In this document: positions 5,711-40,175 of the stretch, piece after piece
Layout of the letters: each line of letters starts with the position of its first letter
Position numbering within the stretch: position 1 is the first letter of the stretch
Origin: Pseudonocardia nigra
Lineage (GTDB): Bacteria > Actinomycetota > Actinomycetes > Mycobacteriales > Pseudonocardiaceae
Length of the DNA: 64,000 bases
Reading direction: 5' to 3'
Assembly: GCF_019396355.1 (NCBI RefSeq)
Contig: NZ_JAHKRK010000018.1
Coordinates: forward strand, 1 to 64,000
Made by a program: the position numbers and the translations under genes
Notes under the pieces: model-generated
What the model saw: the letters and a program-made list of their open reading frames with translations, nothing else
Told to the model about the DNA's origin: nothing
Databases searched by the model: none

Positions 5711-5739
5711 TTGACGTTCTACTGTACGGTTAGTAGCAT
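5711..5739 (+). promoter_or_regulatory. Promoter with type A operator for the CoA ligase at 5854
   Basis: TTGACG (5711-5716) and TAGCAT (5734-5739) are separated by 17 bases. The near-palindrome CTACTGTACGGTTAGTAG (5719-5736) fills the spacer and overlaps the -10, so a bound repressor would block RNA polymerase. The same layout recurs at 13026-13065, 25486-25514, 27910-27945 and 39781-39809. Confidence 0.75.
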
Positions 5740-11736: not shown

Positions 11737-12989
11737 CTACCTGCCGACGACGTCGGCGCCGGTCCGGGCACCGGCCTTGTGGCGCCAGAGGACGGTGGCA
11801 CAGAGAACGCCCACGACGACCGGGAGCGCGGTCAGGAAGATGATGTCGCGCGCCGGCAGCGAGAAGGCAAGCAGGATTCCCGCGATCGCCGGGCCGACGA
11901 TCGACCCGATCCGACCCAGGGCGGCGGCCCAGCCAACGCCGGTGGTGCGGGTGCCGATGGAGTACAGCGACACCGCCAAGGCGAGCTGACCGATCCCGCT
12001 GGCGTACAAGCCCATTCCCGCGCCGCCGAGCAGGAGCAGCAGCAGCATGTTGCCGAGTTCGAACCGCGAGGCGATGACCATGCAGATCACGGAGAACGTC
12101 GTGGCGAGAACGAGGGCCCGCGCAACCCCCAGCCGGGCGGCGAGCGGGATCAGCAGGACCCCGCCGAGGATCCCGCCGAGGCTGACGTACGCCAGCCCCA
12201 GCGGCGCCTCGGTTGCGCTGAACCCGTACTCGATCAGCATCGTCGGCGTCCAGGACGTCAGGATGTAGGCGGCGACGAACACCAGGAACGCGAACGCCCA
12301 CAGCAGGAGCGTGCTGGTACGGAGGTCGGCGACGAACAGCCGTCCGACCTTCGACTCGGCTCGCGCCGCCGCACCGCCGTCGACCTGGGGCGGCTCGGTC
12401 AGCCCCCACACCATGACGATCGCCAGCGCCATCGGCAGCAGCCCACCGAGAACACCCCGGTGACCCCGACACTCTGGATCAGCGCGCCGCCGGTGAACCC
12501 GCCGAGCGTGAGGCCGGACGGCAGGCCGAGGGTGACGGCGACGGAGACGGCCTCCCGGCGGCGGACGGGACTGTGCGACGTCGACAGCGAGACGGCGATG
12601 GGCAGGACGACGCCGAGACCAAGTCCGGTGATCAGCCGGACGACGCTCAGGATCGCGATGGACTCGAGCGGGATCACCAGCGCCGCCGCGATCGCGCCGA
12701 GGCCGTAGAGCACGACGCCGCCGATCAGCACCCGGCGCCGCCCCAGCCGAGCTCCCAGCCAGCCGCAGGTCAGGTAGCCCACCACCACACCGGCGTTCGT
12801 GAGAACCAGCGGCAGTGTGAACGCCGCCGGAACGGTCTCCCACGCCGTCGCCAGCGTGGGAACGGCGAAGGCGAGCGCGGCCGTGTCGAAGCCGTCGAGC
12901 AAGAGCGCGAGAAAGGCCAGGATGATCACTCGCCAGCGGATGGCGCTCGGCTCCTGGTGGGCGAGCTGGGCACTGGGCTCACTGCTCAT
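11737..12989 (-). pseudogene. AAHS-type MFS transporter with a one-base frameshift
   Basis: Two overlapping frames together make a 12-helix MFS permease of about 417 residues. The N-terminal half begins MSSEPSAQ and has LLDGFDTAALAF, typical of aromatic-acid:H+ symporters, plus the GARLGRRRVL loop. Near 12455 the frame slips by one missing base between FSVG and LLPMALAIV; the rest is intact to 11737. It may be a real inactivating mutation or a sequencing error in a GC tract. GGGGAGG lies 7 bases before the ATG at 12989. A type A promoter and a type B palindrome lie upstream, so it belongs to the island's control circuit. Confidence 0.8.
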
Positions 12990-13010
12990 CGAGGCCTCCC
13001 CGGATCGTAT

Positions 13011-13027
13011 GACTGATTAATCGATCG
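13011..13027. promoter_or_regulatory. Candidate type B operator upstream of the MFS gene
   Basis: GACTGATTAATCGATCG has inverted half-sites around ATTAAT and lies in the leader region, 22 bases from the MFS start and downstream of the type A promoter. It resembles the palindromes at 2891 and 39556. Confidence 0.4.
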
Positions 13028-13065
13028 ACGGGGATTCTACTAAGTGGTCAGTATAATCACAAGGA
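13026..13065 (-). promoter_or_regulatory. Promoter with type A operator for the MFS gene
   Basis: Read on the minus strand, TTGTGA and TAGAAT are separated by 17 bases (TTATACTGACCACTTAG). The operator-like sequence occupies plus-strand 13037-13054 and overlaps the -10. It points toward the MFS start at 12989 and has the same geometry as the other four type A promoters. Confidence 0.65.
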
Positions 13066-14186: not shown

Positions 14187-14576
14187 TCACGCGGGCACGA
14201 ACCGGTAGCCGATGACCTCTTCGCCGGAGGGGTCGACGCGGACGGCCCCGGTTTCGAGCACGACCTGGGAGCCCGCGGCTACAGCGCTCGGATCCTCGAC
14301 GCCGGCGAGCTGGCCCACGACGCGGACGCCCTCGGGGAAGTCGACCTGGGCCAGCGCGTACGGCGCACTGAATCCCGGTAGCGCGGAGTGCACCACGGTG
14401 CACGCGTGCACCCTCCCCCGCTGCGACAGGGCCACGCGTTCCACCGACTCACCGAAGCAGTCGGGGCAGCCTCCCTTCGGTGGGAAGTGCGTCGTGCCGC
14501 ACGTCGCGCAGCGGGACCCGTAGAGGGTGCCGCTCTCGGTGTCGTAGACATCTGCGGGGAGCATCGGCTTGCTCAT
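14187..14576 (-). CDS. DUF35 / OB-fold zinc-ribbon acyl-CoA-associated protein
   Basis: This 129-aa protein carries a rubredoxin-like zinc ribbon, with CATC and CPDC at about residues 23-40, then an OB-fold (GRVHACTVVHSALPGF, VRVVGQLAG). DUF35 proteins bind acyl-CoA and partner with MaoC hydratases or SCP-x-type thiolases/aldolases, as known for ChsH2-Ltp2 in steroid side-chain degradation. Here MaoC genes lie next door and an SCP-x-type thiolase at 26772. It overlaps the aldehyde dehydrogenase stop by four bases (ATGA), so the two are translationally coupled. Confidence 0.85.
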   Translation of the reverse strand: MSKPMLPADVYDTESGTLYGSRCATCGTTHFPPKGGCPDCFGESVERVALSQRGRVHACTVVHSALPGFSAPYALAQVDFPEGVRVVGQLAGVEDPSAVAAGSQVVLETGAVRVDPSGEEVIGYRFVPA

Positions 14577-16039
14577 GGGTTCCTCCCGGCGATGGAGTCG
14601 GGCACGTCGGAGCCCGGTTCGGCGAGTGGTGGGGCCGCCTGCGCCCGATCGATCGGCGCGCTGGTGCCGGGCCCGATGACATAGGTGTGGTCCTCCAGGT
14701 ACGACTCGAGGACCTCGACGCCGTGCTCGCGGCCGAATCCGGACGCCTTGACGCCGCCGAAGGGGAGTTCGTCGTAGACGCGGCCGAGGGCGTTGACCCA
14801 GGTGTAGCCGGCCGCGATCTGGCGGGCGACCGAGAGCGCGCGGTCGCGGTCAGCGCTCCAGACCGAGGCGCCGAGGCCGTACGGCGTCTGGTTGGAGATG
14901 CGCACCGCCTCGTCGTCCGAGCCGACCCGGAGCACCGTGAGCACGGGGCCGAAGGTCTCCTCCGTACGCACCCGCGCCGACTCGGGCGGGGCGAGCAGGA
15001 GGGCCGGCTGCACGAAGGACCCACGCTCGGTGTCGGCGCGGTCCGGGCGGCCACCGCCGACGATCTCGGCCCCGTGATCGAGGGCGTCGGCCACCTGCTC
15101 CTCGAGACGTTGTCGGGCGGCCTCGGTGTGCAGCGGCCCCATGGTGCTGTCCGGCGCCTGGCCCGGCCCGACGCGGATGCGCGCCATACGCTGGGTGACC
15201 ATGTCGATCATCTTGTCGGCCACGGCGTCGTGGACGATCAACCGCTTGGGCGCCACGCAGACCTGGCCGGCGTTGTAGAAGCGGGTACCCATGAGGGACC
15301 GCACGGCACGGGTCAGGTCGGCGTCGTCGAGAACCACGAAGGGGTCGCAGCCGCCGAGCTCCAGGCTCAGGCGCTTCAGCGCGACACCCGCGGTGGCCGC
15401 GATCGCCTGACCGACCGGCGTCGACCCCGTGAACGTGACACGGGCGATGCCGGGATGCGACACGAGGTAGCTCCCCACCTCCGGACCGCCGACGACGACG
15501 TCCAGGAGGCCGGGCGGAAGGAACCGTTGAGCGATGGCCGCGAGCTCCCGGGTGATGAGGCTCGTCGTCTCCGCCGGCTTGATCAGGAACGCGCAGCCGG
15601 CGGCGAGCGCGGGAGCGAGCTTCGAGACGAACAGCGACACCGGGAAGTTCCAGGGCACGACGCCGACGACGACGCCGACCGGCTCGCGCTCGACCACCCC
15701 CTCGACGCCGTCACCCAGGGCCACGTGGCGGCCGCCGATGTTCATGGCAAGCCCGGCGTACTGCACGTACGGTCCGATCGAGCGCTCGAGCTCGAGCGTC
15801 GCTTCCTTCATGGTCTTGCCCTGCTCGAGACTGAGCGCCTGCGCGAGCCGCGGCACTTCCGGGCGCATGGCCTCGACGATGCGCAGGAGCGTCTCGGCCC
15901 GCGCCATCGGGCTCGTCGCGGCCCACTTCGTCATGGCGGCGGCCGCTGCCTCGACCTTGGCGTCGATCGCCGCCTCGTCGTCCGCCTCGATCTCGCCGAT
16001 GACGGACCGGTCGTGCGGCGCGGTGACCGGCAGTCGCAT
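14573..16039 (-). CDS. Aldehyde dehydrogenase family protein
   Basis: This 488-aa aldehyde dehydrogenase keeps the catalytic Glu in LELGGCDPFVVLDD and the catalytic Cys in NAGQVCVAPKR, the cofactor segment VVGVVPWNFP, and the C-terminal PFGGVKASGFGREHG. It resembles succinate-semialdehyde/short-chain semialdehyde dehydrogenases, but the substrate is unknown. The frame is open to 16072. I choose the ATG at 16039 because GGGAGG lies six bases upstream and the farther start would place the operator-like repeat inside the gene. It leads an operon with DUF35 and two MaoC genes. Confidence 0.85.
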   Translation of the reverse strand: MRLPVTAPHDRSVIGEIEADDEAAIDAKVEAAAAAMTKWAATSPMARAETLLRIVEAMRPEVPRLAQALSLEQGKTMKEATLELERSIGPYVQYAGLAMNIGGRHVALGDGVEGVVEREPVGVVVGVVPWNFPVSLFVSKLAPALAAGCAFLIKPAETTSLITRELAAIAQRFLPPGLLDVVVGGPEVGSYLVSHPGIARVTFTGSTPVGQAIAATAGVALKRLSLELGGCDPFVVLDDADLTRAVRSLMGTRFYNAGQVCVAPKRLIVHDAVADKMIDMVTQRMARIRVGPGQAPDSTMGPLHTEAARQRLEEQVADALDHGAEIVGGGRPDRADTERGSFVQPALLLAPPESARVRTEETFGPVLTVLRVGSDDEAVRISNQTPYGLGASVWSADRDRALSVARQIAAGYTWVNALGRVYDELPFGGVKASGFGREHGVEVLESYLEDHTYVIGPGTSAPIDRAQAAPPLAEPGSDVPDSIAGRNP

Positions 16040-16057
16040 CACGGCCTCCCATTTGAT

Positions 16058-16075
16058 TGATTGATCTACCAAAGC
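16058..16075. promoter_or_regulatory. Possible operator half-related to the paaA site
   Basis: TGATTGATCTACCAAAGC resembles the palindrome before paaA (19869-19890) in its left arm and centre, but the right arm is degenerate. It lies directly upstream of the aldehyde dehydrogenase ribosome site. Confidence 0.3.
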
Positions 16076-16113
16076 ATACGAGTCACCGGCTCGAGCTAGC
16101 CAGGTACCAGGGA

Positions 16114-16725
16114 TCAGCCTGGAATTCCGATCAGGGCAGTAAAGTGTCGGGCGATGTCTCTCGCCTCGAGGGGCCCGTCAGGCCGGAACCACCGGTGCGT
16201 CCAACTCACCATGCCGAGGATCGCTTCGGTGAGCACCATAGGCGAGAGCTCGGCCGGCAGCCCGCCGTCTCGTTGCACCTCTTGGACGATACCCCGAACC
16301 TCGGCGACGAACTCCCGCTCCGTATCCTGGAGCGCTCGGCGAATCTCTACATCGATCCTGCCGAACTCCTTGTAATACACCGTAAACGGAACGCGTTGCT
16401 TCGCGACCACCAGCGTCATCTGCTCGATCACCTGCGCCAGCACGTCCCGCGAGCTCGCGCCATTCGAACGCGCTTGCCGCAAAGCAGCTGTCAAGTCATT
16501 GACAACCGCCAGCATGATCTCCTTGAGCAAGCCTTCCTTGGACCCGAAGTAGTAGTAGATGGATGGTTGACTCAGGCCGATCCTGGTGGCAATCTCCTTG
16601 GTGGTGCCGGCATCGAAACCCTTCTCCGCGAAGACCTCTGCGGCCACCTCGAGGATCCTCTGCCGCATGCGGTCATAGGTCGACCCAACCGATTCATCAC
16701 CAGTCCCGATGTTAGCTATCGACAT
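16114..16725 (-). CDS. TetR/AcrR family transcriptional regulator
   Basis: This 203-aa DNA-binding repressor has the helix-turn-helix at about residues 25-65 (VFAEKGFDAGTTKEIATRIG, then LSQPSIYYYFGSKEGLL), followed by a ligand domain with the TetR_C signature MVSWTHRWFRPDGPL near the end, as in KstR2-like proteins. The frame is open to 16833, but GGAG six bases before the ATG at 16725 supports that start. It lies immediately upstream of the aldehyde dehydrogenase/MaoC operon on the same strand and downstream of the paa cluster. It is a candidate reader of the type B palindromes. Confidence 0.87.
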   Translation of the reverse strand: MSIANIGTGDESVGSTYDRMRQRILEVAAEVFAEKGFDAGTTKEIATRIGLSQPSIYYYFGSKEGLLKEIMLAVVNDLTAALRQARSNGASSRDVLAQVIEQMTLVVAKQRVPFTVYYKEFGRIDVEIRRALQDTEREFVAEVRGIVQEVQRDGGLPAELSPMVLTEAILGMVSWTHRWFRPDGPLEARDIARHFTALIGIPG

Positions 16726-17221
16726 GAGTTCTCCACGCTGAAGCCACAGCTCGTCCGTCTCCTCGGTCCTCGACGTGCGCTTGCGCGGCGAGCCACGGTC
16801 GCGCTCGCACCCGTGATCGGCATGGCCGCTCACCCTGACGAGCCCTCATGGCTCCTCACCGGATCCGATCCTAGCCCCTGATCGATGAGACAGTCAGACG
16901 CAGGAGCAAACGACGCGGCCACATCGCGATGAGGTCCGACACCGGGGCGAGCCAGGCGAGCGCTTCCCACGGCTGCGCGACGAGGACGGCTCGCGGCGCG
17001 CGTCCGTCGTTTCGCCGGTATGCCGCGGCGGACTGCACGAACGGTGCCGGGACCGGGTGCCGCGCTGGACGAGCCCCCGCCCGCCGCCGAGGAGGGGCCG
17101 GCGACGCCGACCTGGGATCCTTGGTGGTCTTCCTGCTCCCCCGTGCTGACGAGCCCAGCCGCCGACCAGCGCCGCCGGCTGGACCCGGGCTCACGGTCGG
17201 CAAGGGGGCGGTATCAACGGG
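16726..17221. other. Intergenic region without recognisable gene
   Basis: In 496 bases between the paaD-like stop and the TetR start I see only low-complexity open frames rich in Arg, Ser and Pro. A possible regulatory stretch lies at about 16880-16905. No terminator-grade hairpin was found by eye. Confidence 0.5.
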
Positions 17222-17755
17222 TCAGACGATCCGCAGCAATGGTCGTCCTTCGGCGTGGGGCGGCTTCGGCCCACCAGCGGTTGCGGGCAGATCGCTCATC
17301 ACCGAACTCTTGAGCATCTCGAAGGTAGAGCCACACGCACGGCAACTGAATGGCACCTTGCAGATGCTGCCACCAAAGGAGCCATGCTGCTTCACGTCGG
17401 ACCCGGCGCAGTAAGGACACCGCCGCTGCGCTTCTACCCCAGCGTCGTACCCATGCGAGCGGAGCATCTCGCGGCCGTGTTCGCTGATGTCGTCCTGGGT
17501 CCATCGATCGCCCCGCCAGATCACCTCCACCGTCAATGACGGAGCCACGCCCCGCACGGCCGCCCGAACCCGACGCTCCATCTCACCCTTGGCCGGACAC
17601 CCCAGCCGAGTAGGCACCAGGACAACTCTCAGTCGACTCCCCTGTATCGACGACTCCCTGAGCACCCCGAGGTCCTGCAGGGAAATCGGGATCTCCGGAT
17701 CCTCGACCGCGGCGAGCGCCTTCCGGATCGCGTCTAATGGTGCTGTGTCAGTCAT
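17222..17755 (-). CDS. paaD: PaaD-like Fe-S assembly protein of a CoA-ester epoxidase
   Basis: This 177-aa protein has an N-terminal MIP18 domain (AVEDPEIPISLQDLGVLRES and PTRLGCPAKGEMERRVRAA) and a C-terminal four-cysteine zinc-ribbon-like segment, with CPYC and CRAC at about residues 120-150. PaaD/PaaJ proteins help mature the phenylacetyl-CoA 1,2-epoxidase. Its ATG overlaps the paaC stop by eight bases. The tail after the cysteine motif is longer than usual and ends near 17222. It is the last gene of an A-B-C-D order, with no PaaE reductase following. Confidence 0.85.
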   Translation of the reverse strand: MTDTAPLDAIRKALAAVEDPEIPISLQDLGVLRESSIQGSRLRVVLVPTRLGCPAKGEMERRVRAAVRGVAPSLTVEVIWRGDRWTQDDISEHGREMLRSHGYDAGVEAQRRCPYCAGSDVKQHGSFGGSICKVPFSCRACGSTFEMLKSSVMSDLPATAGGPKPPHAEGRPLLRIV

Positions 17756-18533
17756 AGATCTCGTACCTCCACTCCGGGTGCTTGCTGCGCACCTCGCGGA
17801 TCCGCCCGAACAACCGAGCGAGCGCGTCGCCGTCGCTGATGGGGCGACGGGCCCCGTCGACGGCAGCGGCCGGTGCACCCGATCTGGCCACCGCCGCATC
17901 GCCGATGCGCATCTGCGCTTCGCGCAGATGAGCCGACCACGAGTTCAGGAGGTTCTCGTCGGCTCCCTGTCGCACCGACTCGGCGGGCAGCACCGGCTGC
18001 AGCAAATCTGAGGTCGACGCCAGCCGATTAGTGAGGCTCTCCACCAGCTCCGGCCGCGTGCGCTGGTCTCCGAGCAGCATCTCCACCCACCGTTGCCAGT
18101 GTCGAACATGCAGGGTTTGCTCAGCGACCATGACGTCGAAGACGCTATCGGTCTGGTCGTTCTGAGAACCGAGGTACTCCGCGACGCAGCAGCATGCCTG
18201 GGAGAACAGCCACCCTTGCGCCACGAGGTCGGGCCAGATGGTGGCGGGTTCCGCGACAAGGGCCGCAGGGTGCCAATCGCTCAGCGGGTCCGTGAAGACA
18301 TGTCGATCACGTTCCTCGGCGCTCATCCCTGCGCGCTTCCACAGCGCCACGGCGTGCGCGAGGCACTCTTGCGACATCGATCCGACGGCGAGCGACTCTT
18401 CCATGTCCACATAGTCGGTGATCCACGACGAGAGACTGTGTCCGAAGACGAACAAGTCGTCGGCCCAGGCCGTGGCGGCCAGCTTCGTCGCGTTCACATC
18501 GGCACCTTTCGCGGGTGTCTTCGCGTGTGTCAT
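17748..18533 (-). CDS. paaC: PaaC-like subunit of a ring epoxidase
   Basis: This 261-aa protein is helical and ferritin-like, with PaaC landmarks: an N-terminal GHSLSSWITDYVDMEESLA segment, SQECLAHAVALWKRAG, and a central AEQTLHVRHWQRWVEMLLGD. PaaC is the non-catalytic partner that forms the heterodimer with PaaA. The sequence is clearly diverged from classical phenylacetate enzymes. It overlaps paaB by four bases (ATGA) and paaD by eight, so the genes form one tight operon. Confidence 0.83.
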   Translation of the reverse strand: MTHAKTPAKGADVNATKLAATAWADDLFVFGHSLSSWITDYVDMEESLAVGSMSQECLAHAVALWKRAGMSAEERDRHVFTDPLSDWHPAALVAEPATIWPDLVAQGWLFSQACCCVAEYLGSQNDQTDSVFDVMVAEQTLHVRHWQRWVEMLLGDQRTRPELVESLTNRLASTSDLLQPVLPAESVRQGADENLLNSWSAHLREAQMRIGDAAVARSGAPAAAVDGARRPISDGDALARLFGRIREVRSKHPEWRYEIYD

Positions 18534-18838
18534 GGCCTCGGAGCACCGGCTGCGGTGCGGGCATTTCGATGCTTGCCAGGATACGTGGGCTGCCGGTAGT
18601 CCAGTCGGCCTCCGGTGCCCAGCGAGACTAGGTCGGTCGAGTCACTCATCAAGATGGCCGTTCGCGGCACGACCCAGAGCAGTGTGCAGGTATCACGCCG
18701 GACGTAGATTTCCTTTGCGGCATGCCAGGCAAGGTCTGGGTCGGCGCCCCGAACGCTTCCTACGTGTTGAATGGCCTTACCCACGCCAATCTGGACGAAG
18801 ACCTCATACGCCAGCGGGTCGCTTCCAAAGGTTGCCAT
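18530..18838 (-). CDS. paaB: PaaB-like subunit of a ring epoxidase
   Basis: This 102-aa protein fits the small bridging subunit PaaB. It has YEVFVQIGVGKAIQHVGSV near the start, then DLAWHAAKEIYVRRDTCTLL and WVVPRTAI, followed by a C-terminal YRQPTYPGKHR tail. It sits between paaA and paaC as in classical paaABC operons. Confidence 0.87.
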   Translation of the reverse strand: MATFGSDPLAYEVFVQIGVGKAIQHVGSVRGADPDLAWHAAKEIYVRRDTCTLLWVVPRTAILMSDSTDLVSLGTGGRLDYRQPTYPGKHRNARTAAGAPRP

Positions 18839-18896
18839 CGGTCACCCCGTTTTCCAATCGGTCATCACCCGGAGACGTGAATCAGGATGATGGGTC

Positions 18897-19799
18897 CTAC
18901 GCCGCCTGGCTCAATGCCACGTCGCGATAGACGCTGTTGCGGGCCAGCGACCTACGGATCTTCTCGACCCACAGATGGTAGGCCGGGCCGCCATTCCGAA
19001 CGAGGTTCGCAACCTCTTTCCAGTCCGGCATCGCGTAGTTCCACCGGTCGGTATCTGAATCATAGGATGCGAGAGCGGGATCCACCCGAACCCCGAGCGA
19101 CTGGAAGACTGGGACCATTTTCGCGACCCACCTCTGCCGGAGCTCGTGATTCGATGCCACCTTCAGCCCCATCTGGTACAGCGGGTTGTTCCGGATCTTC
19201 TCGGAGTCGTCCGGGCCGAAGACGGCAAGCATCCGGGGGAACCACTTCTCGAACGCCTCCTGCACCAACGTCCGCTGCTGCTCGTTCCCACTGGTCATCA
19301 TCTCGTGGGTGAGGTCCAACGCGTGATGGTAGTGGAACGACTCTTCGCGTTCGATCTTCTTCAGCGCCCGAGCGTACGGCAGGTAGGTGCCGTGCTTCAG
19401 GGACTGGAACTGCACCAGCGCGGTGGAGTTGCCCAGCAGCGCCGCGGGCCCGAACTCCTCCCACGTCTCAAACCGGTAATGGAAGGCGTTCACCAGCTTG
19501 GCCTTGCCCTCGACGAAGTCGGTGAGAATCTGATCGCGATCGCCGCCCAGGTCCTCAGCGACTCGCGCGACGATGTGGCCGTGCCCAACCTCATCTTGGA
19601 TCTTCGCGATGAGCATCTGCTTGCGGCCGACGTCCGGGGCGCGGTCGAGCCAATCCGCGTACGGCAGCAGGCCGACCAGCTCCTGCACGACCTGGTACTC
19701 GGTCAACGTCCGCACACCGGCGCGATACTCACCGGTCATCTCGCTCCAGGCCTCGAACTTGCGATCGAGACGACCGTCCACATTCTCTTCGTTCACCAT
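18897..19799 (-). CDS. paaA: PaaA-like catalytic di-iron subunit of a ring epoxidase
   Basis: This 300-aa subunit would carry the di-iron centre that epoxidises an aromatic CoA thioester using O2. Metal-ligand motifs are visible: KIQDEVGHGH (ExxH, about residues 66-75) and KIEREESFHYHHAL (ExxxH, about 146-160), with NAFHYRFETWEEFGPAAL between them. Length is close to classical PaaA (about 310). The identity is distant enough that a substrate other than phenylacetyl-CoA is likely (inference). GGAGCGAAGA precedes the ATG. A 22-base palindrome 70 bases upstream may be its operator. No PaaE-type reductase is in this operon. Confidence 0.87.
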   Translation of the reverse strand: MVNEENVDGRLDRKFEAWSEMTGEYRAGVRTLTEYQVVQELVGLLPYADWLDRAPDVGRKQMLIAKIQDEVGHGHIVARVAEDLGGDRDQILTDFVEGKAKLVNAFHYRFETWEEFGPAALLGNSTALVQFQSLKHGTYLPYARALKKIEREESFHYHHALDLTHEMMTSGNEQQRTLVQEAFEKWFPRMLAVFGPDDSEKIRNNPLYQMGLKVASNHELRQRWVAKMVPVFQSLGVRVDPALASYDSDTDRWNYAMPDWKEVANLVRNGGPAYHLWVEKIRRSLARNSVYRDVALSQAA

Positions 19800-24550: not shown

Positions 24551-25432
24551 CTAGATCCGCTTGATCTCGGGCGACCCGAGCAGTCCGCTTGGCCTGACGA
24601 GCAGAACCGCGAGCATCACGCAGAACGCAGCGATGTCGCGCGTGCTGCTCGAGATGTACTCTGCGGCAGCCACCTCGACGAACCCGACTATCAGCGCCGC
24701 GATCAGCGCCCCACTGACGCTGTCCAGCCCACCGAGGATCGCCGCCGGGATGGCGCGCAGACCGATGGCACCGAGTTCGGCAGTGACGATCCCGCCGACT
24801 CCAACGGCGACGCCGGCCAATGCGGCCGCGAACCCGGCGATCGCCCACGCACCGGCGAACAGCGCCATGACGTTGACCCCCGACCAGCTGGCGAGGCGCG
24901 GGTTCTCGGCGGCCGCGCGCATCTGCCGGCCGAGGCCGACGTAGCGGAAGAACGCGATCAGCAGCGCGAAGAAGACGCCGGCAATGACGATCGTCGCCAG
25001 CACGTAGTTCGACACCAGGATGTCCGCGCCTGGGATGTGGACGCCGGTGCGGGGCCAGGGCGGTCGGAGGATCTCCGGATTGCCGTGCCAAATGATCTTG
25101 ATGACGGACTGCGCGACCACGGTCAGGCCGATCGTCACCATGACCGGGGCCCAGAGTGCCTCTCCGAGCAGCGGCCTCATCAGCAGCGCGAACACGAGGA
25201 CCCCGATAACCGCGGTGACCACGACCGCGACGCCCACCGCCGCCACGAACGGGAGGGCCAGGACCGAGAGGGTGAGCGTCACCGAGAGGTAGGCGGCAAC
25301 GGTCATGAACTCGCCGTGCGCGAAGTTGAGGACGCGCGTCGCGCGAAAGATGATCACGAACCCGACGGCGACGAGCGCGTAGATCATGCCGACCGACGCC
25401 CCGTTGACCAGCAACGATAGGAAGTCGCTCAC
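24551..25432 (-). CDS. livH: ABC transporter permease, LivH type
   Basis: This 293-aa permease has eight or so hydrophobic helices and LivH landmarks: VNGASVGMIYALVAVGFVII near the start, NFAHGEFMTV, and the contact loop GLGRQMRAAAENPRLASWSG. I place the start at the GTG at 25432, where homology begins. The ATG at 25501 lies inside the type A promoter and cannot be used. It is the first gene of livHMFG plus a CoA synthetase, and it has both a type A promoter and a type B palindrome upstream. Confidence 0.87.
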   Translation of the reverse strand: MSDFLSLLVNGASVGMIYALVAVGFVIIFRATRVLNFAHGEFMTVAAYLSVTLTLSVLALPFVAAVGVAVVVTAVIGVLVFALLMRPLLGEALWAPVMVTIGLTVVAQSVIKIIWHGNPEILRPPWPRTGVHIPGADILVSNYVLATIVIAGVFFALLIAFFRYVGLGRQMRAAAENPRLASWSGVNVMALFAGAWAIAGFAAALAGVAVGVGGIVTAELGAIGLRAIPAAILGGLDSVSGALIAALIVGFVEVAAAEYISSSTRDIAAFCVMLAVLLVRPSGLLGSPEIKRI

Positions 25433-25455
25433 GGGCCCCCATCTCGAGATGCTCC

Positions 25456-25469
25456 CGACCGATCGGTCG
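25456..25469. promoter_or_regulatory. Type B palindrome in the livH leader
   Basis: CGACCGATCGGTCG is a perfect 14-bp palindrome, 24 bases upstream of the livH GTG and downstream of the type A promoter, where a bound protein would block elongation. Confidence 0.55.
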
Positions 25470-25485
25470 AGTGACAGCGCCCGGA

Positions 25486-25514
25486 ACTTTACTAACCGCA
25501 TAGTAGATAGTCAA
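25486..25514 (-). promoter_or_regulatory. Promoter with type A operator for the liv operon
   Basis: On the minus strand TTGACT and TAAAGT are separated by 17 bases. The operator TTACTAACCGCATAGTAG (plus-strand 25489-25506) fills the spacer. The layout is base-for-base equivalent to that at 5711-5739. It lies just downstream of the tandem TetR gene. Confidence 0.78.
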
Positions 25515-25567
25515 CGCGCGCTTCGGCCGAGAGGGCCTTGCTGCTGCTCGTGAGGGCCTGCGGGGCC

Positions 25568-26770
25568 TCAGGGACTGGCGGGTGCGTAGCCGTGGTACAC
25601 CAGGTCCGCGACCACGGCGCCGAGGTCATCGACGCTGAGCGGACCCTCGTGGAACCACCGCAAGGTGGCGTTCATCCCGCCGAGGAGTGCGGGCAGCACG
25701 ACGCGCGAGTCGACCGGCCGGAACACGCCTTCCTTGATCCCCTGTCGAACGACGCCGCGAAAGAGCTCCGCGTAGGTGCGCTCCCCCACCCGAAGCTCCG
25801 TGAACGCCGCATCCGACAGCGACGAGCGCGACAGCAGGTAGAGGGAGTAGAGCGCACGCTGCTCGTGGACCCACCGGAGGTGGAGGCGGATGATCGCGGC
25901 GAGCACCCGGTGCGGCGGGCGGCCCTCCGCGACCGCTTCGGCGGCGCCGATCAGCGCGTATCCGACACGCCGCACGAGCTCCTCGAGCAGCTCTTGCTTC
26001 CCCGTGACGTAGTAGTACAGCGCCGCCTTCGTGAGGCCGAGCTCGTCGGCGATGTCCTGCATCGTCGTCGCCTCGTACCCCTTGGCGTGAAACAGCGACG
26101 CGGCGACCCGGACGATCTGCTCTCGTCGACCGTCGTGTCCGGTCGAGGGGCTGGGGCTCGGCGTCGGGAGCGCCGTCTTCGACACGGTCCGCGGGGCCGC
26201 CCGCCCGGTGGCAAGTCCACGGAGGAAAAGGTCGACGATCACGTCGGCCACGTCCTCCGGCGGGAGGCCGGCGTCAGGGCGGTACCAGTCGACGGCGGAG
26301 GCGAGCATGCCGAGCAGGAGATGAGTCGCCACCGACGGCGCCGGCCGGGAGCGCCGGCGCGACGGAAGCTTTGCCACCAGCTCGGTCAGACGGCCGACGT
26401 ACAGTCGCTCCATGTCTTCGAGCTCGCCCAGGACCTCGGGCGACAGCTCGGACCGTTCTCTCAAGGTGACCGACAGCACGGCACGGTTGGCCACGACTGC
26501 CGCCACGTGCTGCCGAGCGAACGCGCGCAGGGCCCCCGAGGCGCTGCCCGCGCCGTCGAAGTCCTTCGCCGCCGCCGCGAGGAGCTCCCGGCCGATCTGC
26601 CGCGCGAGCTCCTCGAGGAGCTCCTGCTTGGAGCGGACGTAGTAATAGAGCGCGGCCTTGGTGAATCCCATCTCGCTCGTGAGGTCCTCGATCGACGTGG
26701 AGCGATAGCCCTTCTCCTGGAACAGGCGCGCTGAGACCGCGAGCACCTCCTCCCGACGGCCGCTCCCCAT
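25568..26770 (-). CDS. Tandem TetR regulator: two TetR repressors in one chain
   Basis: This 400-aa protein contains two complete TetR units. Unit 1 (residues about 1-190) has its helix-turn-helix at RLFQEKGYRSTSIEDLTSEM then GFTKAALYYYVRSKQELLEE. Unit 2 (about 212-400) has SLFHAKGYEATTMQDIADEL then GLTKAALYYYVTGKQELLEE. A Pro/Ser/Thr-rich linker joins them. Both recognition helices (GFTKAALYYYV and GLTKAALYYYV) are nearly identical, so one polypeptide may bind both half-sites of a palindrome as a pseudo-dimer. The ATG lies one base after the thiolase stop, so the two are coupled and share the type A promoter at 27910. It is the best candidate for reading type A operators (inference). Confidence 0.88.
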   Translation of the reverse strand: MGSGRREEVLAVSARLFQEKGYRSTSIEDLTSEMGFTKAALYYYVRSKQELLEELARQIGRELLAAAAKDFDGAGSASGALRAFARQHVAAVVANRAVLSVTLRERSELSPEVLGELEDMERLYVGRLTELVAKLPSRRRSRPAPSVATHLLLGMLASAVDWYRPDAGLPPEDVADVIVDLFLRGLATGRAAPRTVSKTALPTPSPSPSTGHDGRREQIVRVAASLFHAKGYEATTMQDIADELGLTKAALYYYVTGKQELLEELVRRVGYALIGAAEAVAEGRPPHRVLAAIIRLHLRWVHEQRALYSLYLLSRSSLSDAAFTELRVGERTYAELFRGVVRQGIKEGVFRPVDSRVVLPALLGGMNATLRWFHEGPLSVDDLGAVVADLVYHGYAPASP

Positions 26771-26771
26771 G

Positions 26772-27908
26772 TCAGACCTTCAGCACGTGCACGGCGCAGA
26801 CGTTGGTCTCGAGCTCGTACACGGTGCCACCCATGGTGTGTGAGACGGCCACCCGGGCCCCTTCGACCTGGCGATCCCCCGCCTCCCGCCGCAGCTGCCA
26901 CGACAGCTCGGCGATCTGCGCGGTGCCGGTTGCGCCGAGCGGATGACCGCGGGAGAGGAGGCCGCCGCTGGGGTTCACGACGACGCCGCCGCCGCCGAGG
27001 GCGGACTTCCCGGCCTCGACGTACCGGCCGCCCGCACCGGCCGCACAGAACCCGAGCGACTCGCAGTGCAAGATCTCGCCGATGGTGAAGGCGTCGTGCA
27101 CCTCGCACACGTCGACGTCCTCGGGACCGATGCCGGCCCGCTCGTATGCCAGGCGCGACGTGCGCACCGTCGCATCGGAGGCGCGCTCGACCTGGTCGTT
27201 GAGCACGCCCGAGTTCAGGGCAGAGCCGGCCAGTCGAACGATGGGTCGGCCGTTCGCGAGCTCGCGTCCGCGCGTCAGTGTCGTGAGCACGACTGCCGAT
27301 GCGCCGTCGGAGCGCGGGCAGCACTGCAGGAGCGTGATCGGGTCGGCAACGGGGCGGCTGGCGAGCACGTCGGAGACGCTGATCGGGGTGCGGAAGTGGG
27401 CGTAGGGGTTCGCCATCGCGTGCCTGCGGTTCTTCACCGCCACGAGGGCGAGCTGCTCGACGGTGAGACCCTGCTCCATCTTCGCTCGCGCCTTGAGTGC
27501 GTACATCGCAGGCCATGCCGCGCCCATGCCACTGATCGGGTCGTCGAGGTTCAGGCCGACGACGCCCTCGTGCCGGCTCAGCGATTCGACACCGACGACG
27601 AGAACGGTCTCGGCCATGCCGGCGTGGATCCACATGGCGGCCTCGTTGAGCGCAGTCGTGCTGCTGGCGCACGCGTTCTCGACGTTGATGACCGGCGGAC
27701 CGGTGAGCCCGAGATCCTTCAGCACCCGCTGGCCGGTGCCGGCCGTCAGCTGGACGTTGCCGACGAAGGAAGCCTGGATCTCGTCGCGGGCGACACCCGC
27801 ATCGCGCAGGGCGGCGCGGACCGCCTCGCCGACGAGCGACTCCGGCGACCGCTCGGGCTGCTTGGTGAAGCGCGTCATTCCGACGCCTGCGACGGCAAGC
27901 TCTTCCAT
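26772..27908 (-). CDS. SCP-x/lipid-transfer-type thiolase
   Basis: This 378-aa thiolase-fold enzyme has the nucleophilic Cys80 in VENACASSTTA, HDAFTIGE in the third quarter, and the C-terminal GHPLGATGTAQI. It belongs to the thiolase branch that lacks the second canonical Cys motif and often needs a DUF35 partner, as for Ltp2 retro-aldolases. A DUF35 gene lies at 14187. It could cleave a beta-keto- or beta-hydroxy-acyl-CoA in the island's pathway. The gene is led by a type A promoter at 27910-27945 and is coupled to the tandem TetR gene. Confidence 0.85.
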   Translation of the reverse strand: MEELAVAGVGMTRFTKQPERSPESLVGEAVRAALRDAGVARDEIQASFVGNVQLTAGTGQRVLKDLGLTGPPVINVENACASSTTALNEAAMWIHAGMAETVLVVGVESLSRHEGVVGLNLDDPISGMGAAWPAMYALKARAKMEQGLTVEQLALVAVKNRRHAMANPYAHFRTPISVSDVLASRPVADPITLLQCCPRSDGASAVVLTTLTRGRELANGRPIVRLAGSALNSGVLNDQVERASDATVRTSRLAYERAGIGPEDVDVCEVHDAFTIGEILHCESLGFCAAGAGGRYVEAGKSALGGGGVVVNPSGGLLSRGHPLGATGTAQIAELSWQLRREAGDRQVEGARVAVSHTMGGTVYELETNVCAVHVLKV

Positions 27909-27909
27909 G

Positions 27910-27945
27910 GGCCCTCCACTACTGAGCGGTCAGTAGAACTGTAGC
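27910..27945 (-). promoter_or_regulatory. Type A operator and promoter for thiolase and tandem TetR
   Basis: On the minus strand CTACAG and TAGTGG are separated by 17 bases (TTCTACTGACCGCTCAG). The operator CTACTGAGCGGTCAGTAG occupies plus-strand 27919-27936 and overlaps the -10. The hexamers are weaker than in the other copies, but the positions are identical. Since it drives the tandem TetR gene it suggests autoregulation. Confidence 0.65.
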
Positions 27946-28058
27946 CCCACGCCCCAGCCCACGCCAGCGCGCGCGGCGCGCGTCGGGTCCTGCCGGCAGG
28001 CGCCGCACACTCGAGCCGACCTGCCGCCCGTCCTGACGCGACGGTCGCGGAGGCGCCC

Positions 28059-28087
28059 TTGACATGGGACGACGGCCCCCATATCGT
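28059..28087 (+). promoter_or_regulatory. Sigma-70-type promoter for the acyl-CoA dehydrogenase operon
   Basis: TTGACA (28059-28064) and TATCGT (28082-28087) are separated by 17 bases. The type B palindrome at 28095-28108 would cover the start point. The nearest downstream intact gene is the acyl-CoA dehydrogenase at 28366. Confidence 0.65.
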
Positions 28088-28094
28088 CGCTGAT

Positions 28095-28108
28095 CGACCA
28101 ATCGGTCG
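28095..28108. promoter_or_regulatory. Type B palindrome at the start point of the 28059 promoter
   Basis: CGACCAATCGGTCG has perfect CGACC/GGTCG arms around AATC. Its place just after the -10 fits a repressor operator. Confidence 0.6.
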
Positions 28109-28205
28109 ACTAGCTCTGAGAAGCAGTCGTGGAAGCGTTTTCGCTTGCCCGCGCGATTCAAGGCCACTCGTTCACCATGGGCGTAACGACGACGGAGGAG
28201 CAGGC

Positions 28206-28320
28206 ATGGAACAGCGCTCCGCACTCCCGCAGGCTCCTCGCGGAGCCGGCGCAGACACCTTTCGGCCGGCATCCCGAGCGACAATTTCCACCTGCCCCGA
28301 TCGCGAGTTCCGTCGTCCGC
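28206..28320 (+). pseudogene. Relic of a CoA ligase 5' end
   Basis: ATGGAACAGCG...CTGCCGCAG of the ligase at 5854 is matched here: MEQRSALPQ, then after a one-base insertion LLAEPAQTPFGRHPERQF, against LLAERAKTHPDRIFIHE. Homology fades by about 28320, so only the first 30 or so codons remain. The leader TTCACCA also resembles that before 5854. It lies between the type B promoter and the acyl-CoA dehydrogenase. Confidence 0.65.
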
Positions 28321-28365
28321 CGTGTCGTGTGGTAGCGGCCTTCAACTGAGAAGAGGAGCACGCTC

Positions 28366-29544
28366 GTGAGGATCGCGTTGACGGCGGAGCAGGAGCAGCT
28401 GCACGACGAGTTGCGGGAGTACTTCGCCAAGCTCATGACGCCGGACATCAAGCAGGCGTTGGCCTCGTCCGACGAGGGCGATCACGGCAATCCCGGCGTC
28501 TACAAGAAGGTCCTCCGCCAGATCGGCAGCGACGGGTGGCTCGGGATCGGATGGCCCAAGGAATACGGCGGCCAGGGGCGATCGACGCTCGATCAACTGA
28601 TCTTTTCCGACGAGGCCGACGTCGCTGGTATGGGTCCGATCCCGTGGCTTGCGCTCAGTGCCGTGGGGCCGACGATCATGGCCTACGGAACCGAGGAGCA
28701 GAAGAAGCGCTTCTTGCCACGGATCGTCAACGGCGAGGTGATCGTGTCGATCGGCTACTCCGAGCCGGATGCGGGGACCGACCTGGCGATGCTCAAGACC
28801 CGGGCGGTGCGCGACGGGGACGACTACGTCATCAACGGCCAGAAGATGTGGGTGACCTTCGCCGAGTACGCGGACTACCTGTGGCTGGCGGCGCGTACCG
28901 ACCCCGACGCGCAGCGGCACAACGGCATCTCCGTGTTCCTCGTCCCGACCGACACGCCTGGCCTCAGGTGGAGCCGGGTGAACACGATGGGGGAACGGAC
29001 GACCGTCGCGTATTTCGACGATGCCCGGGTCCCGGCCGAGAACCTGGTGGGCGGCGAGAACCAGGGTTGGCGGCTCGTGACCAACCAGCTCAATCACGAG
29101 CGGGCGATGATCGGTTCACCCGCCGAGCTGCAGAGCCTGCTGCGGCGGGTCGTGCAGTGGGCGGCCGACAAGCGGCTGCCCGACGGCACCCGGGTCATCG
29201 ACCAGCAGTGGGTCCGGATGAACCTGGCCCGCATTCACGCCGGCGCCGAGTTTCTCAAGCTGATCACCTGGGAGATCGCCACGAGCGAGGCGGTGAACCC
29301 GGCCAAGTCGTCGGTGGCGAAGGTCTACGCAAGCGAGTTCACGGTGGAGGCCCATCGACTGGCGATGGAGGTGCTCGGCGCGGGTGCCGTCATCCAGGAG
29401 GACTCGGTCGGCGCCGAGTTGCGAGGTCATCTCGAGTTCACGTACCGCCTGGCGCTCGTCCGCACCTTCGGTGGCGGCACCAACGAGATTCAGCGGGACA
29501 TCATCGTCACGGCGGCCCTGGGTATGCCCAGGGCCCCGAGGTAG
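28366..29544 (+). CDS. Acyl-CoA dehydrogenase, FadE-type
   Basis: This 392-aa FAD enzyme introduces a double bond into an acyl-CoA. Landmarks are IGYSEPDAGTDLAMLKTRAV, the FAD-contact stretch INGQKMWVTFAEYADYLWLA, and the C-terminal RTFGGGTNEIQRDIIVTAAL. It resembles the alpha subunit of the heteromeric (alpha2beta2) dehydrogenases of steroid and aromatic catabolism. GTG start with GAGGAG nine bases upstream. It is followed 12 bases later by a second dehydrogenase, probably its partner. Confidence 0.88.
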   Translation: MRIALTAEQEQLHDELREYFAKLMTPDIKQALASSDEGDHGNPGVYKKVLRQIGSDGWLGIGWPKEYGGQGRSTLDQLIFSDEADVAGMGPIPWLALSAVGPTIMAYGTEEQKKRFLPRIVNGEVIVSIGYSEPDAGTDLAMLKTRAVRDGDDYVINGQKMWVTFAEYADYLWLAARTDPDAQRHNGISVFLVPTDTPGLRWSRVNTMGERTTVAYFDDARVPAENLVGGENQGWRLVTNQLNHERAMIGSPAELQSLLRRVVQWAADKRLPDGTRVIDQQWVRMNLARIHAGAEFLKLITWEIATSEAVNPAKSSVAKVYASEFTVEAHRLAMEVLGAGAVIQEDSVGAELRGHLEFTYRLALVRTFGGGTNEIQRDIIVTAALGMPRAPR

Positions 29545-39780: not shown

Positions 39781-39809
39781 TTGCACGCTTACTGACCGTA
39801 TAGTAGAAT
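39781..39809 (+). promoter_or_regulatory. Promoter with type A operator for ferredoxin and FprA
   Basis: TTGCAC (39781-39786) and TAGAAT (39804-39809) are 17 bases apart. The operator TTACTGACCGTATAGTAG (39789-39806) fills the gap. It has the best -10 of the five type A promoters on the plus strand. Confidence 0.78.
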
Positions 39810-39848: not shown

Positions 39849-40175
39849 GTGACCTACGTGATCGCCGAGCCCTGCGTCGACCTGCTCGACAAGTCGTGCA
39901 TCGAAGAGTGTCCGGTGGACTGCATCTACGAGGGCGGGCGGATGATGTACATCCACCCCGACGAGTGCGTGGACTGCGGCGCCTGCGAGCCCGTCTGCCC
40001 GGTCGAGGCGATCTACTACGAGGACGACGTCCCCGAGCAGTGGGCCACCTACACCACGGCCAACGTCGACTTCTTCGACGAGCTGGGCTCGCCCGGCGGC
40101 GCCTCGAAGATCGGCAAGATCGACAAGGACGTCGGTCCGGCAGCGAGCCTGCCGCCCCAGTCGCATGACGAGTGA
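39849..40175 (+). CDS. fdxA: 7Fe ferredoxin
   Basis: This 108-aa ferredoxin has [17 protein letters not shown] for the 3Fe-4S cluster and [17 protein letters not shown] for the 4Fe-4S cluster, with a C-terminal extension typical of actinomycete FdxA. GTG start with GGAGG nine bases upstream. It is followed 33 bases later by FprA, its likely reductase. Confidence 0.92.

Follow-up and report, generated by a model that had tools for sequence, protein, structure and literature searches.

A double TetR regulator predicted to read quasi-palindromic operators in an acyl-CoA catabolic gene cluster

A stretch of 64,000 nucleotides of Pseudonocardia nigra, referred to here as the window, encodes a protein in which two complete TetR units are joined in one chain. 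Repressors of this type ordinarily function as dimers. The question raised by this locus is how such a fused regulator would read DNA: which sites it recognises, whether the two halves of a site are equivalent to it, and where the fusion came from. Here, we focus on an 18-bp site termed the type A operator, and set out the proposal, which as a whole we consider fairly probable, that the protein is a single-chain, autoregulated repressor acting on quasi-palindromic type A sites of an acyl-CoA catabolic cluster.

The regulator is read from an ATG start as 400 aa with no internal stops, and a Pfam search of the protein gives TetR_N (E 4.7e-30) and TetR_C_24 (E 1.6e-39), each in two stretches. One open frame without a stop and two strong domain matches rule out a frame artefact or a chance ORF. 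The protein has the make-up of the TetR family, with an N-terminal TetR_N helix-turn-helix (HTH) and an all-helical C-terminal ligand domain, and that of a double TFR, a single polypeptide that contains two complete TFR units. The original prediction had described two full TetR units, covalently joined, whose recognition helices are almost the same, and both points are borne out: the units are identical at 9/10 positions of the recognition helix, 34/60 of the first 60 residues and 72/192 aligned columns over their whole length. The linker between them (table 1) has an AlphaFold2 mean pLDDT of 58 in the block 191–200 and 57 in the block 201–210. The possibility that one unit lacks DNA contact was also considered. 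The DNA contacts of the double TFR Mce3R include T47, Y52 and K58, according to the accessible part of PMC11667970, and in an alignment by eye these T, Y and K residues are kept in both window units (T37/T247, Y42/Y252 and K48/K258); there is therefore no sign of either unit being without DNA contact.

Table 1. Regulator, neighbouring genes and candidate operators (window positions).
Feature	Position	Strand	Remark
Double TetR regulator, 400 aa	25568..26770	-	Single ORF, two TetR units
N-unit HTH, residues 7–52, GFTKAALYYYV	26615..26752	-	Profile match, E 1e-17
Linker, about residues 189–212	26135..26206	-	Sequence and model pLDDT
C-unit HTH, residues 217–262, GLTKAALYYYV	25985..26122	-	Profile match, E 7e-22; Pfam
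C-unit ligand domain TetR_C_24, residues 285–394	25589..25918	-	Pfam
Thiolase gene, first of the regulator's operon	26772..27908	-	Stop and regulator ATG one base apart
livH-type permease ORF	24551..25501	-	livM/F/G, then AMP-ligase, come next
Ferredoxin, 108 aa, Fer4; first gene downstream of the 39789 site	39849..40175	+	In-frame domain search
Candidate type A operator, thiolase-regulator operon	27919..27936	-	Oriented CTACTGACCGCTCAGTAG
Candidate type A operator within livH promoter spacer	25489..25506	+	Oriented TTACTAACCGCATAGTAG; first spotted by eye
Candidate type A operator, AMP-ligase/binding-protein genes	5719..5736	-	Oriented CTACTAACCGTACAGTAG
Candidate type A operator, MFS transporter	13037..13054	-	Oriented ATACTGACCACTTAGTAG
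Candidate type A operator, ferredoxin and reductase genes	39789..39806	+	Oriented TTACTGACCGTATAGTAG
Candidate type B operator, CCGACCGATCGGTCGA, downstream of livH -10	25455..25470		Probably for another TetR

The fold was modelled with AlphaFold2 from 36 alignment rows, no templates and a single chain as input, so that an interchain dimer lies outside its reach. The best model has a pLDDT of 86.2 and a pTM of 0.77, and the five models span pLDDT 68.5 to 86.2. The best Foldseek match is Mce3R (PDB 9b7y; TM 0.71/0.73, rmsd 6.8), and VIA-align aligns 361 residues of the 385-residue Mce3R chain with residues 1–397 of the model (Z 28.4, rmsd 4.7 Å), the next chains being single units at Z 19. The window protein is thus predicted to fold as an intrachain pseudo-dimer like Mce3R; the single-chain reading offered earlier agrees with this match to the whole Mce3R chain, obtained from single-chain model input.

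Mce3R (Rv1963c) of M. tuberculosis is the only double TFR that we found with both a structure and a mapped operator, a non-palindrome. In its solved structure, as described in the accessible part of PMC11667970, one chain forms a pseudo-dimer on an asymmetric operator and has one composite ligand domain. That composite domain, together with a G-x-F-R-x-x-D-like stretch that is missing from the N unit and present in the C unit (alignment of double TFRs), suggests that the window double TetR would respond to one effector, where integration of two had been proposed. The same source gives 204 putative double TFRs predicted earlier in Actinomycetes, and the idea that the two-domain architecture might be new has accordingly been dropped; the window protein joins a known group, with an apparently independent origin and a predicted quasi-palindromic operator. 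The two proteins share a single chain of about 400 aa, two TFR units and the fold of the whole chain. Mce3R is autoregulated and controls lipid/CoA catabolic genes (accessible part of PMC11667970), properties whose counterparts in the window are predicted. They differ in that Mce3R reads 25-bp non-palindromic sites with non-identical HTHs and has units reported in distinct TFR subgroups, whereas the window protein has near-identical helices, units that are sisters in trees and a predicted 18-bp quasi-palindrome whose outer arms match. The traits listed for Mce3R also include homodimerisation through alpha-15. Sequence scores of the window protein are higher against the single TetRs 3dcf, 3vpr and 2ibd (C unit) than against Mce3R, of which it is probably not an orthologue.

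The gene order and the site positions confirm the arrangement first described for this locus, in which thiolase and regulator form an operon with a type A site ahead of it and a second such site lies between regulator and livH. The regulator would thus be autoregulated, if the position of the candidate site ahead of its own operon is a guide. The pattern TACTRACCNNNYAGTA is the likely operator of the double TetR. The site ahead of thiolase matches CTACTGANNNNTCAGTAG exactly, and at up to three mismatches CTACTGANNNNTCAGTAG gives five sites in the window, this one included, against 0.75 expected and a largest shuffle of 4. One of these five, 2887–2904, was dropped, as it fits the asymmetric pattern poorly and is absent from the TACTRACCNNNYAGTA matches at up to one mismatch, and the livH site at 25489–25506, spotted by eye, was added. 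Each of the resulting five type A sites ranks first in the window under a leave-one-out matrix, and with a matrix of all five their scores are at least 22.9, the best other place reaching 10.6. Exact TACTRACCNNNYAGTA occurs five times in the 8.49-Mb genome, always in this contig, where composition predicts 0.06–0.14; allowing one mismatch adds two places and the flipped 27919 site, giving 8 against 7 for the backwards control. Within the window, type A has six places and the backwards pattern none at up to one mismatch, and 21 against 25 at three mismatches; for the palindromic form at three mismatches, the genome holds 74 places against 272 for the backwards control (37 against 136 per strand). 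The type A signal is one of exact, clustered sites and not of a genome-wide excess. All five sites are intergenic by the gene list, given a livH start near 25432, and intergenic DNA makes up 12.5% of the first 41.6 kb. The annotated livH start at 25501 falls inside the type A operator, and for this reason the true start is probably at about 25432.

Every type A site fills the 17-bp gap between a -35-like and a -10-like hexamer in one common register, and the TAG of one arm (TAA at livH) begins the -10-like hexamer. The hexamers are good at the ferredoxin (TTGCAC-17-TAGAAT, plus strand), MFS (TTGTGA-17-TAGAAT, minus strand), AMP-ligase/binding-protein (TTGACG-17-TAGCAT, plus strand) and livH genes (TTGACT-17-TAAAGT, minus strand, 25514 to 25486), and weak at thiolase (CTACAG-17-TAGTGG). 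A promoter scan of 25000–28500 independently recovered the livH promoter and did not recover that of thiolase. Since the site fills the spacer, a bound repressor would exclude RNA polymerase.

A group of single-TetR relatives carries a palindromic version of type A, with the halves TACTNACC and GGTNAGTA. The best BLAST matches of the double TetR units fall within a set of 15 loci (L016–L030) whose single-unit relatives belong to other classes in the phylum and mostly have a TKPALYYY helix. The pattern TACTNACCGGTNAGTA is found at up to two mismatches in 13/15 of these loci, compared with 0.12 on average and 5 at most for 200 scrambled half-sites, and several of the palindromes immediately precede the TetR gene. 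Sites like ACTGACCGGTCAGT are frequent directly ahead of haloarchaeal single TetRs with LHYHY helices: 60 candidates, a count that includes chance matches, lie close to 51 of 197 single-TetR ORFs.

Are the two halves of the window sites equivalent? An asymmetric operator had been proposed, and this description holds for the core and fails for the outer arms, which match each other (TACTR/YAGTA). On one side the core reads ACC in 5/5 sites, on the other in 0/5 (AGC, TAC, AGT, TAC and TGC). By one criterion applied to both sets, 11/13 single-TetR sites and 0/5 window sites have A[AC]C as the core triplet on each side (Fisher p 0.0025, with related sites counted as independent). The asymmetry does not come solely from overlap with the -10 hexamer, as the ACC half is proximal to -35 in three promoters and to -10 in two; lying at either end of the spacer, it makes the asymmetry independent of promoter direction. 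For the five window sites alone, a symmetric model has p 0.008 by parametric simulation and 0.12 by re-pairing, and with so few sites and two such values the claim of core asymmetry is a moderate one. A left-left symmetrised type A site has the halves TACTGACC and GGTCAGTA. In Tn10 TetR, the helix that precedes the recognition helix reportedly contacts an inner base through Arg28; at the aligned position the N unit has E28 and the C unit Q238, a difference that would be consistent with matching arms and differing cores.

It is also conceivable, if rather unlikely in our view, that type A is read by an ordinary symmetric reader, with equivalent HTHs, core differences that are tolerated drift and a fusion that merely fixes the dimer (for example, by effective concentration). 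The recognition helices identical at 9/10 positions and the re-pairing value speak for this, as do alphaproteobacterial double TFRs with similar units: eight of their loci have a common palindrome ahead of the double TFR, CTAACA-NN-TGTTAG, exact in six and with one arm base changed in two, which we infer to be their operator. An asymmetric site is thus not obligatory ahead of a double TFR. The L206-derived pattern ATTAGAATCTAAT had one match in L206 and none in L204, L205 or L209 with two mismatches allowed. Equivalent HTHs are harder to reconcile with the one-sided ACC of the window sites and the A[AC]C triplets on both sides in most sites of the single-unit relatives. Turning from the form of the site to the identity of its reader, two more TetR genes lie in the window, at 16114 and 36337, and type A might belong to one of these, the double TetR then reading type B or another sequence. 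Type B (GACC-N4-GGTC) is in excess, with 20 matches at up to three mismatches, strands counted apart, against 5.9 expected, some of them outside promoters; an exact copy at 28094–28109 shares the stretch between the thiolase and acyl-CoA dehydrogenase genes with the type A site, 157 bases past it. Moreover, no type A-like site (best match, five mismatches) is present in the locus of L150, on the nearest branch of a 78-row tree, or in those of L114 and L002, which lie close to the double TetR in a 49-row tree. Against such an exchange of readers, which we judge improbable, type A adjoins the regulator's own operon, and the 28094 site adjoins a TTGACA-17-TATCGT promoter directed towards the divergent acyl-CoA dehydrogenase; the L016–L030 relatives carry the type A-like palindrome; and L153, whose helix AKPTLYHYF resembles that of the 36337 TetR, has the type B-like CCGACCGGCTGGTCGG upstream, its neighbour L152 having no equally clear site. 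Type B would fit the 36337 TetR better. Finally, two chains might associate through N:N and C:C contacts, so that one assembly would contain two symmetric TetR dimers and have two operators and two effectors. This was an alternative model of Mce3R before its structure (accessible part of PMC11667970), and the model input here was one chain; it is nonetheless very improbable, as the single-chain model matches the intrachain arrangement of Mce3R over its whole length and one quasi-palindromic operator class covers the proposed regulon.

In the single-chain mechanism that we favour, the gene of an acyl-CoA-responsive TetR would have been duplicated in tandem and the copies then fused. The chain would fold as an intramolecular pseudo-dimer with both HTHs on one 18-bp site, the near-identical recognition helices reading the outer arms and the diverged contacts of the preceding helix, E28 and Q238, reading the core triplets ACC and WRY. 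Repression would extend to five promoters, those of the thiolase-regulator operon, the liv transporter, the AMP-ligase/binding-protein genes, the MFS transporter and the ferredoxin, and an acyl-CoA of the pathway would release the repressor. Binding, the assignment of units to half-sites, repression and the effector are all deduced here from sequence and comparison. The livH and MFS promoters carry type B downstream of type A, more weakly at MFS, and two repressors may therefore meet on one promoter. TCGACCNATCGGTCGA-like type B sites are also seen ahead of livH, acyl-CoA dehydrogenase, P450 (39555–39582) and, weakly, MFS (about 13005–13030).

The origin of the fusion was approached with half-domain trees of 78 of 205 rows and of 49 rows, Mce3R being absent from both. 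L143 and L205, being near-copies, were omitted; the second tree was also built without L207_p2, L208_p2 and both halves of L203, most for long branches. The two window units (WIN_N and WIN_C) are sisters, with support 95* in the first tree and 96/87* in the second, and the best BLAST matches of each are single TetRs and not the partner unit. In the 49-row tree, the N labels need five changes, all forced by starred branches, and a single clade of the nine sampled N-halves is rejected (p-AU 0.0012). As the N-halves do not form one clade, fusions giving double TFRs seem to have arisen repeatedly, and that of the window seems to have arisen on its own; gene conversion between the halves could also yield sister units. 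At L207 and at L208, a pair of unlike TetR genes lies side by side near paa-like genes, the second member being very divergent (branch 3.3 in the 78-row tree).

Other double TFRs occur in two genomes of the same genus, G285 and G1077 (3/62 with the window's own, in a looser genus search; divergent), in four other genomes of the class (5/296 with its own, five candidates being scored in each) and on plasmids of Rhodococcus and alphaproteobacteria. The window protein is 25–29% identical to six of them, and those whose surroundings were read lie among acyl-CoA genes. Full-length relatives were confined to the own genome in searches of the family (1/297, E <= 1e-60), the class (1/394, 1e-40) and a phylum sample (1/296, 1e-55, profile), with four to six candidates scored per genome, and these searches thus gave no whole-protein orthologue for footprinting. 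A named-orthologue search found a double TFR in 0/80 loci kept, the best segment identity being 25–52%. The best identity to the thiolase in the genus is 52%, with 30/62 genus genomes at 1e-80 and 4/129 of a phylum sample positive, its own included in both; 14 loci of about 4 kb around related thiolases have neither a TetR nor TACT-N8-AGTA. Literature word searches on double or tandem TetR did not retrieve this particular fusion among the matches listed, and the accessible part of PMC3511530 contains nothing on fusions.

Among known systems, KstR2, AibR and Fad35R, acyl-CoA-responsive TetRs, have the same fold in one unit. AibR is said to be a homodimer of single units. KstR2 and Fad35R differ from the window protein likewise in being homodimers of single units, as given in the accessible part of PMC11667970. 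PfmR (TTHB023) of Thermus thermophilus (PDB 3vpr) is a relative of the C unit with 34% identity; it regulates fatty-acid genes through operator halves of the CTGACC type (accessible part of PMC7022988), and differs in being a single unit whose palindrome has a 4-base gap between ACC and GGT. The R. pyridinivorans plasmid pRJH2 (L141:5905-7193) has the gene order thiolase-TetR-TetR with a TetR pair 74% identical, but these TetRs are unfused and on another branch of the tree, and the thiolases share just 27% identity.

As a tentative generalisation, repeated tandem duplication and fusion of acyl-CoA TetRs may be a route to broken operator symmetry, in which the HTHs diverge after fusion and the orientation of the repressor on the promoter becomes fixed. 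Operators would range from a palindrome (alphaproteobacterial) through an asymmetric core (window) to a non-palindrome (Mce3R), the window protein being an intermediate with a nearly unchanged recognition helix and a change in the preceding helix alone. If binding holds, the locus offers a direct test of the passage from a homodimeric repressor to a single-chain reader of unequal half-sites, with nearly symmetric predicted natural sites and single-unit relatives with the symmetric version as test material, and also a fused repressor of compact size, with an operator that fits into a promoter spacer.

Several minor observations concern the window itself. Its GC content is 0.687, compared with 0.700–0.758 for 11 further stretches of this assembly, and the best BLAST matches of the regulator halves lie outside the class, tree neighbours within the class also existing; the contig may have been acquired horizontally as an island, or may have been placed here by an error in binning (the assembly has 5.58% contamination). 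The MFS gene at 11737–12989 lies in two overlapping frames (12399–12989 and 11737–12843), both MFS_1, as if from a frameshift or sequencing error. Phenylacetyl-CoA-epoxidase-like genes (two PaaA_PaaC and one PaaD-like) and an aldehyde dehydrogenase are found at 14573–19799, with MaoC-like genes just ahead and the TetR gene 16114–16833 beside them.
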